This document shows positions 32,960 to 62,773 of a stretch of DNA of 64,000 nucleotides, piece after piece; position 1 is the stretch's first letter, and the number at the start of each line of letters is the position of its first letter. The translations under genes were made by a program, and so were the position numbers. Under the pieces are notes generated by a model, which had not been told where the DNA came from, did not search any database, and worked only from the letters and a program-made list of their open reading frames with translations. The stretch is from Anaerolineae bacterium (lineage in GTDB: Bacteria > Chloroflexota > Anaerolineae > Aggregatilineales > Phototrophicaceae), in contig JAIOHM010000085.1 of NCBI GenBank assembly GCA_019912965.1, positions 1 to 64,000 of the forward strand. The letters run 5' to 3'.

Positions 32960-33202
32960 GCAGAATGACTCCATACAATTCCAGGCTTAGGTACTGGCCT
33001 GTTTGAGTTCAATACCTTCCCAAAATCGGGCAGGGTTATTGACTAACCATGAACTCAGTATACGGCTGCCATCCCGATTTGTTCTTTACACTTCATAAAA
33101 TTCATGCGATTTTAATGCGCTGCCAAAACCAGATTCAAACTGTACAACTTAGAAAATTTGTACTACAATAGAATTTACGTTCTTAACATCGAGGAGAGAT
33201 GC

Positions 33203-49907: not shown

Positions 49908-50394
49908 TCAGCAAATGTATTCACGGTTACCTGTTACGGGTTTCCAGTTTCCAGAAAAATACAGGGAAAGTGGCGGCGGCGGCGGCGGCGCGGTGGCGAA
50001 AAAGGGTTTGGCCGCCACTGTAGTTATCGGTTGCCAGTTACGAGTTTCCAGTTTCCAGAAAAAAGCAGGTCGTTCCCGGTTTTCAGTTAAACCCATAGGG
50101 GATGGTTTGCGGCGATTGCGATTGCGAAAATGGGTTTGCGCGCAATGTCACAGATGTCGTCAATGTCGTCAATGTCGTACACGGATTTTGTGACATTTTA
50201 TGTCGTCGGTGTCGTCGTCGTCGTCGGGATGGGTTTGTCGGACAAGTATGAGTTGATAAGATTCGCAAATTTCTGCAATTTCTACAAATGCAGCACCGAA
50301 TTTTGTGCAGATTTTGCAGATTTGGGGATGAAGTGGGCATCCGAGCCGGATGCCCCTACAAGTTATCATAGCACAAGAGTTCGTATCCGTCAAT
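49908..50394 (-). ncRNA. Repeat-rich transcribed leader element, copy 1
   Basis: On the minus strand TTGACG (50388-50393), 17 bases and TATGAT (50365-50370) form a promoter. Just downstream is the hairpin GGGCATCCGAGCCGGATGCCC (50337-50357). The rest has AATCTGCAAAATCTGCACAA-type repeats, (GAC)n and 9-base steps (ACGACATTG), CGCAATCGCAATCGCCGCAA, heptamers (50028-50066 and 49917-49945) and a (GGC)n run (49974-49991). The whole order is matched by the inverted copy at 62297-62773. It ends 100 bases before the aldehyde dehydrogenase start. No coding frame is conserved between the copies. Confidence 0.6.
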
Positions 50395-51390: not shown

Positions 51391-54069
51391 TTACCCTTTG
51401 AGTTGGGCTTCGGCTTCGGCAATCCAGCGCAGCATTAAATCGGCATCCTCGATGTGATCCATCTGGCGGAAGTAGATTTCAGCTTCGCGCCAGCAAGCGA
51501 TGGTCGCGGGCAAGTAATCTAATTTCTCATAGGCGATGCCGAGGTTGCGCTGAGTCATAGCAAAATCTAGGGGAGCGGCGGATGGGGTGTAGTATTCCAG
51601 CGCGACTTGATAGCACTCGATGGCATGGCGCAGATTGGCATCTCGGTCTTCGACTGCTGCCAGTTTGCGGTAGGCAGCCCCCAAATTGTTCTGTGTTAAG
51701 GCAAAATCTAGGGGAGCGGCGGACGGGGTATAGTATTCCAGCGCGACTTGATAGCAGGCGATGGCACGGTGAAGGTTGTTGATAGGATCTTCAAGGGCTG
51801 CCAGATCACTGTAGGCAAGTCCCAGATTGTTCTGTGTTAAGGCAAAACCTAGGGGAGCGGCGGATGGGGTGTAGTATTCCAGCGCGACTTGAAAAGCGTC
51901 AATAGCGCAGCGCAAGTTAGCGATGTGATCTTCGATGGTGGCCAGATCAGCGTAGGCATTCCCCAAATTGTTTTGGGTCATAGCATATTTCAGCGGGACG
52001 GCGGATGGGGTGTAGTATTCCAGCACAGCTTGATAGCAGGCGATGGCACGGCGCAAGTTAGCGATGTGATCTTCGATGGCCGCCAAATCAGTGTAGACAG
52101 CCCCCAGATTATTCTGGGTCATGGCATATCTCAGTGGGGCGACAGTGGGGGTATAGTATTCCAGCGCGACTTGAAAAGCGTCAATAGCGCGGTGCAGGTT
52201 AGCGGTGTGATCTTCGATGGCTGCTAACCCTTTGTATGCAACTCCCAGATTGTTTTGGGTTCCAGCATAATCCAGCGGGGCGGCGGATGGGGTATTGTAT
52301 TCTAGCGCGGATTGATAGCAGGCGATGGCACGGCGCAGATTTTCGCGACGGTTGCCAATAGGAAGACTCTCATAATCGCTGCCGAGGCTGTTTTGTGCAT
52401 TTGCCCAGAGCATTTTATCGGGATGATTTGCTAATTTATCAGTCAAACGCTGTGACCAATTGAGAATTTGAGCAAAGCGTCCTCGGTTGTAGAGAAAATT
52501 ACTGATATTATTCGTCAGCCAAAGCGCATCCTCGCCATCGCCTGAGCCTAATGCCCACTCAAAAGCGGCCTCCAGATTGGCGGATTCGGGGTCAAGGCCG
52601 AGGTAATCTTGTTTATCATCGTGGTGTTGAGCCAGTGTATGGTAATAATCGAAGTGGGTGCGGCGAGCGTTTAGGTCTTCGCCGACGGCGGCGATGACGA
52701 GGGGGTCGATAGTGTAGCGCCCCTGTTCGAGGGCAACGAGTCCCCATTGGACGAGGCGGGCGAGGAAATCGACCCTCACCCCCTGCCCCTCTCCCTCAGG
52801 GCGAGGGGAGTCAGAAGTCGAGTCGGTGGGTTTCATAATGGCGAGGGAGGCGGAGAAGGTGAAACCACCGCGACCGACGGCGAGACGGCGCAGGGCAGCG
52901 ATAGTTTCTTCACCATCCGTTTGCTGGCGCACCTGTTCAACCGTTTTCAGCACCATTTCGTTTAAGGCTTCGTCGGCGTCCGCGCCTTTAAGGGAATGCA
53001 GGGTCGAAAGCACATAATCCGGCGGGTAGGTATTCAGCCAGCGAACGGCGTACTGCATCAAACGCGGATGACGGCGGGCGGCTTCGGCCAATGCGGTTTC
53101 GTGACCATTCAGCGAAAAATTGGGCGGTTCAAGAGCGGACATGGCTTTCAAAATGGCGACGGCTGAGTCCAGATCAGGGGCCCGGAGGTCAAGGGGTTTG
53201 ACGTGGCGCAGTTCTCGCCATGCGGCGCGGCTGGTGACGAGGACGCGGGCATGGTCAAGCACGTTCAGGCGGGCGGCATAAGCGGCGGGTTGGGCGCAGT
53301 CTTCGGCATTATCCAGCACGATCAGCATTTGGCTTTGGCTGGCTTTTGCCCAAATTGCGTCGTCTTCGGCAGTTTGGGGCAGACGGAGATGGTCACGAAT
53401 GGTCAAGGTTAGCTGGCTAATGGTGGACTGCGGCGTGATGGTGTGCCAAACGACGCCTGCGGGAAAATCGGCACGGGCGGCAACCTCGACGGCTAAACGG
53501 GTTTTGCCCACGCCGCCTAAGCCCAGTACGGCGACAATGCGCTGATCGGATTTCAGCGCGTCCTGCACAGTTTTCAATTCGGCGTCACGGCCAATCAGAG
53601 GTAAATCCAGATGCCAGCGCGGGAATGAACCGCTGATAGGCGCTGCTTGTGCCACAGCGGGTGCATCGGGGTTCAGGTCGGTGTTGTTGGCGATGGCTTT
53701 GCGTAAAGCATCCAGACCGCCCGCCCAATCTTTGGCCAGATCAGCATATTGAATCGTCCCCAAACGCAGCGGAATATCTTTCAGCGGGACGGATTCGATC
53801 ATGGCGATGTAGAGCCGTTTGCCGAGCGCCAAGACGCGATTCCATTCGGCTTCGCAATAGGCGGATTGCGCCGAGGCAGGCGAAAGGATGAATAATCCGG
53901 CGGCGCAGTCGTGGGCGGCCTGTTGAATTTCGCGCGCCCAATTATCGCCCGGTTCAAGGCCATCAACATGATCGACCCATGTTTCGATTCCGGCGGCTTC
54001 CAGTTCGTTATGTAAACGGGTGACGGTAGGGTCATCGGCGGTGGCGTGGCTGACGAAAATGTGGGGCAT
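51391..54069 (-). CDS. TIR-NB-ARC-TPR protein (STAND, NLR-like)
   Basis: An 892-residue protein. The TIR domain (1-130) has HIFVSHATADD, LEPGDNWAREI, LFILSPASAQ and YCEAEWNRVLAL, with Glu75 at the position of the NADase glutamate. An NB-ARC domain follows: Walker A GLGGVGKT (183-190), Walker B LIVLDN (249-254), RVLVTSRAAW (sensor) and a winged helix near 390-460. The winged helix has an extra segment (SDSPRPEGEGQGVRV) from an inserted palindrome. The C-terminal third is six 47-residue TPR units, nearly identical (RRAIACYQVALEYYTPSAAP, LTQNNLGAAY). The architecture matches bacterial NLR-like immune sensors that degrade NAD on recognising a phage. Confidence 0.92.
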   Translation of the reverse strand: MPHIFVSHATADDPTVTRLHNELEAAGIETWVDHVDGLEPGDNWAREIQQAAHDCAAGLFILSPASAQSAYCEAEWNRVLALGKRLYIAMIESVPLKDIPLRLGTIQYADLAKDWAGGLDALRKAIANNTDLNPDAPAVAQAAPISGSFPRWHLDLPLIGRDAELKTVQDALKSDQRIVAVLGLGGVGKTRLAVEVAARADFPAGVVWHTITPQSTISQLTLTIRDHLRLPQTAEDDAIWAKASQSQMLIVLDNAEDCAQPAAYAARLNVLDHARVLVTSRAAWRELRHVKPLDLRAPDLDSAVAILKAMSALEPPNFSLNGHETALAEAARRHPRLMQYAVRWLNTYPPDYVLSTLHSLKGADADEALNEMVLKTVEQVRQQTDGEETIAALRRLAVGRGGFTFSASLAIMKPTDSTSDSPRPEGEGQGVRVDFLARLVQWGLVALEQGRYTIDPLVIAAVGEDLNARRTHFDYYHTLAQHHDDKQDYLGLDPESANLEAAFEWALGSGDGEDALWLTNNISNFLYNRGRFAQILNWSQRLTDKLANHPDKMLWANAQNSLGSDYESLPIGNRRENLRRAIACYQSALEYNTPSAAPLDYAGTQNNLGVAYKGLAAIEDHTANLHRAIDAFQVALEYYTPTVAPLRYAMTQNNLGAVYTDLAAIEDHIANLRRAIACYQAVLEYYTPSAVPLKYAMTQNNLGNAYADLATIEDHIANLRCAIDAFQVALEYYTPSAAPLGFALTQNNLGLAYSDLAALEDPINNLHRAIACYQVALEYYTPSAAPLDFALTQNNLGAAYRKLAAVEDRDANLRHAIECYQVALEYYTPSAAPLDFAMTQRNLGIAYEKLDYLPATIACWREAEIYFRQMDHIEDADLMLRWIAEAEAQLKG
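51569..52390 (-). repeat. 141-base tandem repeats in the TPR region
   Basis: Units of 141 bases repeat about six times; for example GGGAGCGGCG occurs at 51571, 51712 and 51853. The high DNA identity implies recent expansion or homogenisation, so copy number may vary between strains. Confidence 0.85.
52773..52810. repeat. GC-rich palindromic repeat inside the TIR-NB-ARC gene
   Basis: Near-identical to 7411-7449: CCCTCACCCCCTG, CCCCTCTCCCT, CAGGGCGAGGGGA. It is read from the opposite strand relative to the host gene and yields SDSPRPEGEGQGVRV in the winged-helix loop. Confidence 0.8.
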
Positions 54070-58903: not shown

Positions 58904-58976
58904 GGGCCTATAGCTCAGTTGGGAGAGCGCTTCAATGGCATTGAAGAGGTCAAGGGTTCGAGTCCCTTTAGGTCCA
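58904..58976 (+). tRNA. tRNA-Ala (anticodon GGC)
   Basis: Complete cloverleaf: acceptor GGGCCTA with TAGGTCC (one G-T pair), D arm GCTC-AGTTGGGA-GAGC, anticodon stem CTTCA/TGAAG with loop ATGGCAT, and T arm AAGGG-TTCGAGT-CCCTT. The anticodon GGC reads GCC/GCU codons for alanine. CCA is not encoded. A terminator follows at 59035. Confidence 0.97.
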
Positions 58977-62296: not shown

Positions 62297-62773
62297 TTGA
62301 CGCATACGAACTTGTGTGCTATCATGATCTGTAGGGGTGTTCTGCTTGGACGCCCGCTTTGCCCCCAACATGCGAAATCTGCACAAAACCCTGTGCTGCA
62401 TTTGCCGCTTTTTTCGCATATTATCAATTGATAATGGTCGCCGCCGCCACTTCCGCCACTTCTCATGGTCGTAATAACCTTGTGCGACGACGACAATCCC
62501 CAAAGATTCGCAGGATTCAAAAAATCGGTGTGCGAATCTGACGAATTTGAAGAATCTTGCGAAATTTGCGAATCATTGCGCGCAAAGCCCTTTCGCAATC
62601 GCAATCGCCGCAATCGCCGCAAACTATCCTTTATGGATTTAACTGAAAAATGTGAACTGATAACTACAGTGGCGGCGAAACTCTCTTTCGCCACGCCGCC
62701 GCCGCCGCCACTTTCCCTGTATTTTTCTGGAAACTGGAAACCTGTAACGGGTAACCATAAATGCATTTGCTGA
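62297..62773 (+). ncRNA. Repeat-rich transcribed leader element, copy 2
   Basis: TTGACG (62297-62302), 17 bases and TATCAT (62320-62325) form a promoter whose spacer (CATACGAACTTGTGTGC) closely matches that of copy 1. A degenerate GTAGGGG hairpin follows, then AATCTGCACAAAACC, TGATAATGG, GACGACGAC, GCGAATCTGACGAATTTG-type steps, CGCAATCGCAATCGCCGCAA, heptamers (62640-62670), (GCC)n at 62695-62711 and TTTCTGGAAACTGGAAACC. The boundary TCAGCAAATG (reverse strand) is shared with copy 1. It ends 65 bases before the haemoglobin gene. Confidence 0.6.

Follow-up and report, generated by a model that had tools for sequence, protein, structure and literature searches.

The window analysed here, a stretch of 64,000 nucleotides from an Anaerolineae bacterium, contains two copies of a repeated element, one at 49908-50394 on the minus strand (W50), which had been flagged by an earlier sequence-only reading, and its partner at 62297-62773 on the plus strand (W62). 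They are followed by codirectional genes, for an aldehyde dehydrogenase and a globin. As that reading had claimed, the two copies are homologous from end to end, with a mean column identity of 82% over the full-length alignment. The parts that it had named were also found, namely the TTGACG-N17-TATGAT and TATCAT promoters, the GTAGGGG hairpin, CTGCA-type repeats, GAC repeats, CGCAATCGCAATCGCCGCAA, heptamers, (GGC)n and the common end CATTTGCTGA (Table 1). Both promoters obtained the top promoter-like score of their respective regions (10/12 each). Elsewhere in the window, an 892-amino-acid protein with a TIR domain, NB-ARC/AAA and TPR, of a kind seen in defence or signalling, is encoded at 51391-54069 on the minus strand, and a tRNA gene lies at 58904-58976 on the plus strand.

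Table 1. Parts of the two window copies, with the comparison on which each assignment rests.
Feature	Position	Strand	Basis
W50 conserved block 5' of the -35 box, TTTCAAACCGTTTTACAA	50394..50413	-	22-head alignment, several invariant columns
W50 sigma70-type promoter, TTGACG-N17-TATGAT	50365..50393	-	conserved among 22 heads
W50 putative SOS-type operator, GAAC-TCTT-GTGC, between -35 and -10	50371..50382	-	GAAC and GTGCTA (nearly) invariant in 22 heads
W50 hairpin GGGGCATCCGGCTCGGATGCCC, expected transcript 5' end	50335..50356	-	other copies keep the position, stem letters differ
W50 first array module, CTGCA-type imperfect palindrome	50261..50323	-	module pattern at 51 own-genome sites, control 0
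W50 GACGAC module	50201..50244	-	
W50 GACATTGACGACATT module	50146..50195	-	
W50 GCGCGCAAA...TTTCGCAATCGCAATCGCCGCAA module	50107..50145	-	
W50 heptamer repeats, CTGGAAA type	50022..50060	-	
W50 GGCGGC...GCCGCC module	49971..50019	-	
W50 second heptamer block	49925..49959	-	W50/W62 alignment
W50 end common to W62, ATACATTTGCTGA	49908..49920	-	W50/W62 alignment
W62 promoter, TTGACG-N17-TATCAT	62297..62325	+	
W62 putative SOS-type operator, GAAC-TTGT-GTGC	62308..62319	+	22-head alignment
W62 5' hairpin	62334..62355	+	
W62 first array module	62370..62419	+	module pattern search
W62 GATTCGC...GCGAATC module	62503..62574	+	
W62 GCAATCGCAATCGCC module	62576..62622	+	
W62 GGCGGC...GCCGCC module	62668..62710	+	
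W62 heptamer block and end common to W50	62722..62773	+	W50/W62 alignment

The element is widespread in its own genome (G000, 7.76 Mb in 237 contigs). A blastn search with W50 gave at least 101 matches with an E value of 0.01 or lower, with 40 of 228 candidates scored, and several of these matches sit at contig ends, as expected of repeats that break assemblies. The head of the element, searched as a pattern with up to three mismatches, was found at 22 sites and never in the reversed control. A 55-position sequence model built from 22 heads retrieved 28 matches of at least 35 bits, the next match scoring 21 bits, and two loci just under this gap (L103, L104) are heads with arrays too. The repeat is thus real and beyond chance, but it is not the two-copy element first described; the claim that it represents a dispersed family under one promoter, in unrelated places, is supported. 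Two of the heads, at C146:34448 and C77:138 (L099, L101), are near-identical, share an identical 60-bp upstream flank and lie at contig ends. One of them is interrupted by the GGTAG element described below, and the pair is due either to duplication or to a doubling in the assembly.

The 28 matches have in common a head of about 47 bp, hereafter head A, that consists of a sigma70-type promoter with ACGAAC-N4-GTGCTA between its -35 and -10 boxes. The columns that are invariant in the alignment of 22 heads are T-GAC, TAC-AAC, GTGCTA and, in the -10 box, its final T; the letters between them vary, and a block TTCAAACC...TTTA is conserved 5' of the -35 box. Further upstream, the sequence is unlike between most copies. 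On the 3' side of the -10 box, most head-A copies carry a GTAGGGG hairpin with differing stems, which we take to resemble REP sequences, followed by modules in variable order. The single order of parts noted earlier therefore holds between W50 and W62 but not in other copies. Further promoter subfamilies were found upstream of array modules, namely B (ACCCGAAC-TTGACTTNCATAGCCCTTTTGTTCTATGATG), C (GCCCCGA-TTGACCAATCAGAACTTTTATTCTATGAT) and D (CAAA-TTGACACATAAGGACAAATGTTCTAAAAT), each with one altered half-site, as well as plain LexA boxes. Altogether, 55 SOS-type promoter sites were counted in 761,824 fetched bases against none in the reversed control, a count that includes the promoter of a NurA nuclease gene and one probable chance match (window position 33192, minus strand). 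A genome-wide pattern search found 43 sites and none in the control.

The earlier reading had listed the promoter spacer as one of the shared parts and missed what it looks like, an SOS (LexA-type) operator. The Gram-positive LexA motif is given as GAAC-N4-GTTC in one report (PMC3323433). The own recA promoter, TTAGAACTTTAGTGCTAAACT with AGAACTTTAGTGCTA, contains AGAAC-N4-GTGCTA and so has the GTGC half-site of head A, whereas the promoter of the own lexA gene (on contig C236), TTGACAACCGAACATAAGTTCAGTTATACT with GAACATAAGTTC, has GTTC. The exact head pattern, scanned over 84,980 species with one genome each, occurred in 12 stretches, five of them titled Chloroflexota, Chloroflexi, Anaerolineae or Promineifilum and seven titled Clostridia, Oscillospiraceae, Ruminococcus or Brevibacillus. 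A Pfam match was obtained for the gene behind the box in three of the five Chloroflexota-type stretches. The exact motif precedes recA of a Promineifilum genome by 99 bp (L182), a serine recombinase gene of a Chloroflexi genome by 132 bp (L192:5468-7633), and a YjbR gene (L189). In the same way, TAGAAC-N4-GTGCTAACCT precedes the three NurA nuclease genes tested (L173:4074-5315, with the own promoter at C79:13318, L194 and L222). Since its half-sites recur before recA, in the own genome and in Promineifilum, and before NurA genes, head A is a candidate SOS operator: it overlaps the promoter, GAAC-N4-GTGCTA is invariant or nearly so in the 22 heads, and LexA would be expected to bind it.

Several observations touch on the range of such boxes. 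In relatives, SOS-type boxes lie 66-70 bp before genes for BNR/Sortilin-like proteins (L206, L212, L217), which is unexpected for an SOS regulon. A LexA-type N-terminal domain also occurs in another protein, encoded at C30:10744-10959 (L073; a 192-aa frame, below the cut-off), which is a possible second SOS-type repressor. Head-type SOS boxes were also present in three viral contigs (L333, L334, L335), with no array in the part examined; L334 and L335 are identical there, so that these matches amount to two genomes' worth. Two further viral contigs match the GCAATC word exactly and have neither an array nor an SOS head within the 800 bp examined. A plasmid origin of the element was rejected, as no match was found.

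The arrays are tied to these promoters and point one way. The first array module occurs at 51 own-genome sites, of which 42 have at least 300 bp of upstream DNA, and at 34 of these 42 an SOS-type promoter scoring at least 13/16 lies on the same strand within 450 bp upstream. The corresponding controls gave 0/42 downstream and 0/42 on the opposite strand. Among the eight sites with no scored promoter at this distance, the module on C132 has an SOS-type promoter about 1.1 kb upstream and that on C77 a weaker one (TTGCT for TTGAC, score 12). For eight module types with 329 occurrences in the fetched DNA, 206 have a same-strand SOS promoter within 1.6 kb upstream and none lies behind a promoter of the opposite strand; 63 are too near a region edge and 60 have no promoter within 1.6 kb. 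These promoter and module counts cover regions chosen around heads and arrays rather than an unbiased survey of the genome, and the promoter score was devised with these regions already in view. Replication direction does not explain the polarity of the modules, because heads face both ways on single contigs (C17, C95), and a replication-strand bias was rejected as its cause.

Parallel families were found in relatives. Among 98 genomes of the family, one genus being represented by 17, the SOS promoter pattern was most frequent in G061 (47 sites), G000 (43), G062 (36), G054 (28), G064 (25) and G066 (20), all of this one genus, while the other 92 genomes have at most 12 sites. The elements were compared in G054, G061 and, less fully, G062, and in all three the SOS promoters are followed by other elements than the own-genome arrays. 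G054 has a 231-bp core with 40 matches, and one weak match only was found elsewhere in the 17 genomes of the genus. Of these cores 29 were fetched, and 25 remained usable after exclusion of two at contig edges (L294, L306) and two with short upstream sequence (L297, L313; the latter has a downstream promoter score of 14). A full SOS-type promoter (score of at least 14) lies upstream of 19 of the 25, four have GAAC-N4-GTGCTA without TTGAC (L286, L288, L295, L305) and two have neither promoter nor operator (L291, L293). The elements of G061 and G062 stand behind plain LexA boxes and are alike in translated words, unlike those of G054. Beside ftsZ the neighbour differs, and no empty site was found there. 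Just 3' of one SOS-headed element of G054, a glycine riboswitch (61 bits) was observed at L274:3438-3544.

A MITE-like element of 140-193 bp, named here GGTAG, has the ends GGTAGCACCACACTAAACGGTGG and CCACCACTTAATGCAGTCCTACC, which are near-matching inverted repeats. In the fetched regions, which were selected around heads and arrays, it is present in G000, G061 and G062 and is degenerate or single-ended in G054. In all 15 SOS-proximal copies the same end comes first, at 30-32 bp (mean 31.3) from the centre of the operator; eight are in G000 (L128, L141, L151, L156, L171, L174, L067, L069), six in G061 and one in G062. Flanking repeats were compared for the 13 two-ended copies. They are exact over 8 bp at L226, L237 and L254 and over 6 bp at L225, match at 6/8 positions at L243, these five being G061/G062 loci, and are lacking in the remaining eight. 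Among seven further copies situated elsewhere, three are close to contig ends and two (L251, L273) sit 13 bp away from an SOS promoter, on its -35 side. Since the genomes do not share the same letters at the point of insertion, distance appears to set the place; the fixed spacing suggests that the bound repressor or polymerase may guide integration. The exact left end of the element had no match in viral contigs.

Taken together, we hold with slightly better than even confidence that W50 belongs to a dispersed family of arrays without recognised genes, whose constant part would be a damage-induced SOS (LexA-type) promoter, carried by mobile or recombining units. A repressor sitting between the -35 and -10 boxes would hold the unit off until DNA damage releases it from the head, and transcription would then proceed across hairpin-prone modules arrayed in one polarity. 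Such units would be small elements that spread non-autonomously, by mobility or recombination, with modules being inherited, shuffled and added behind the promoter, for which the GGTAG element at its set distance from the operator would be the visible example; the SOS-headed arrays have probably spread in this way. Several points stand against this explanation. No scored promoter was found within 450 bp upstream of 8/42 first modules or within 1.6 kb of 60/329 modules, 2/25 G054 cores have neither promoter nor operator, the own lexA has the GTTC half-site, the B, C and D subfamilies have altered half-sites, and no empty site was found. In addition, no transposase was identified for the array units.

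The alternative that survives best, although we find it unlikely, is that the copies are SOS small-RNA or small-protein genes that benefit the host and are kept in large number by selection and not by mobility. In 11 G054 copies picked for similar spacing, the promoter and the core are conserved and similarity is lost between them, which suggests selection on both. Moreover, a Shine-Dalgarno sequence with ATG is present in 18 of 28 G054 copies, in which frame 0 is free of stops before the core and the other frames have stops in four and two copies. On the contrary, the synonymous share is lowest in this very frame (0.20 versus 0.395 and 0.22), so that no conserved open frame with synonymous bias was observed in G054, and the open frame varies among G061 copies. 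Protein coding in G054 was thus rejected on the codon test, the retention of the start in 18/28 copies being ambiguous. A conserved RNA structure likewise found no support: fold energies are ordinary (z -1.3 for the G054 element and -0.5 for W50), covarying predicted pairs number 1/47 in the G054 core and 1/29 in the G061 core, and no Rfam family matched the elements in 15 kb of the window or in the loci of ten relatives. The variable order of modules in the own genome also speaks against such genes.

Passive accumulation would require no unit at all: unrelated REP-like or MITE-like repeats would have collected behind old SOS promoters. Many sites do lie behind gene ends, with 19 of the 45 own-genome sites for which both neighbours were called being placed in the gap between convergent genes, where insertions harm little, and insertion behind the promoters is indeed seen for a MITE-like element. 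Nevertheless, independent undirected insertion predicts both orientations, and what was observed is 206 modules in one and none in the other; in three relatives the SOS promoters are followed by core elements, and the promoters themselves have multiplied in six genomes. We therefore regard this explanation as quite improbable, and the mobile or recombining SOS-headed array remains our preferred reading.

The sequence-only reading had viewed the element as a family of 5' leaders or riboregulators by which the genes behind them are brought under common control. Next downstream genes were called by a hexamer-based method at 57 own-genome sites, a set in which the NurA promoter and one or more probable chance matches are likewise counted; a gene was callable at 47 of them and none could be assigned at the other 10. 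The next gene is convergent at 30/47 sites and codirectional at 17/47. It is also convergent in relatives, at 14/17 sites in G061 and 12/17 in G062, while G054 leans the other way, with 7/18 convergent and 11/18 codirectional. W50 and W62, which do point into a gene as stated, are hence atypical since most own-genome sites face a convergent gene, and a codirectional gene does not follow most copies, G054 excepted. Other evidence could be read in favour of a leader, as three own-genome heads lie 108-234 bp before genes for DinB, a short-chain dehydrogenase and a PNPOx protein; array sequence follows the DinB and short-chain dehydrogenase genes. The type of downstream gene is not constant, however, and the aldehyde dehydrogenase and globin genes of the window have nearer promoter-like matches of their own (9/12, weak). 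Common control of downstream genes was thus not borne out, and we consider it highly improbable. It had also been asked whether copies elsewhere lack the promoter and are placed at random relative to genes: the promoter is kept, but the copies are not tied to genes.

Least probable of all is that the operators act as decoys, sequestering LexA and setting the point at which the SOS response starts, which would fit 55 SOS-type sites in 762 kb of fetched DNA with none in the reversed control, but a decoy needs no -35 box, -10 box or array, all of which accompany the operator, and several subfamilies have an altered half-site.

Beyond the preferred reading of SOS-headed arrays, a more speculative proposal can be made, to which we give clearly less than an even chance. 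The family may be a new class of element in which the SOS promoter would serve as both engine and address: a damage-induced transcript would run through the one-way array, and the bound repressor or polymerase would direct small elements to integrate, always in the same orientation, some 31 bp from the centre of the operator, so that arrays grow beside the promoter and the majority of the genome's SOS operators end up in them. If the SOS reading is right, most SOS-type operators seen in several related genomes would precede repeat arrays and not repair genes, and the DNA-damage response would be tied to the spread or reshuffling of repeats. Integration guided by repressor or polymerase would, moreover, be an unusual choice of target in bacteria.

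The family was taken to be undescribed, and this was borne out within the scope covered: in addition to the lack of an Rfam match, no such promoter-headed array family was found in a literature search largely limited to open-access journals. Like the promoters of the LexA/SOS regulon (GAAC-N4-GTTC), the heads have two half-sites 4 bp apart between the -35 and -10 boxes; they differ in that head A has GTGC for GTTC and in that most of the sites seen here precede arrays without recognised genes and not repair genes. To our knowledge, REP and REPIN carry no promoter, whereas the constant part of the present family is the promoter, with the modules all oriented the same way relative to it. The likeness to these sequences (PMC3116915, PMC8049555) lies in short hairpin repeats scattered between genes. 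With MITEs and promoter-carrying insertion elements, the family shares its small size and its dispersal, and no enzyme of its own was found. The GGTAG element resembles MITEs in its near-matching inverted ends and in the 8-bp flanking repeats of three copies; for the head-plus-array unit, which has a variable 3' end, no common terminal inverted repeats or target duplication were found. Like the present family, the arrays of integron cassettes and of CRISPR have a promoter at one end and modules in one orientation and variable order. The arrays described here differ from them in having neither cassette genes nor a regular repeat-spacer pattern, the modules being short hairpins, and the copies compared hold different modules in variable order. 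Finally, genes for SOS small RNAs and toxins such as TisB have a LexA-type promoter before a short transcript. The family resembles them in this promoter and in the possible short open reading frame of G054, and differs from them in forming tens of dispersed copies with permuted modules.
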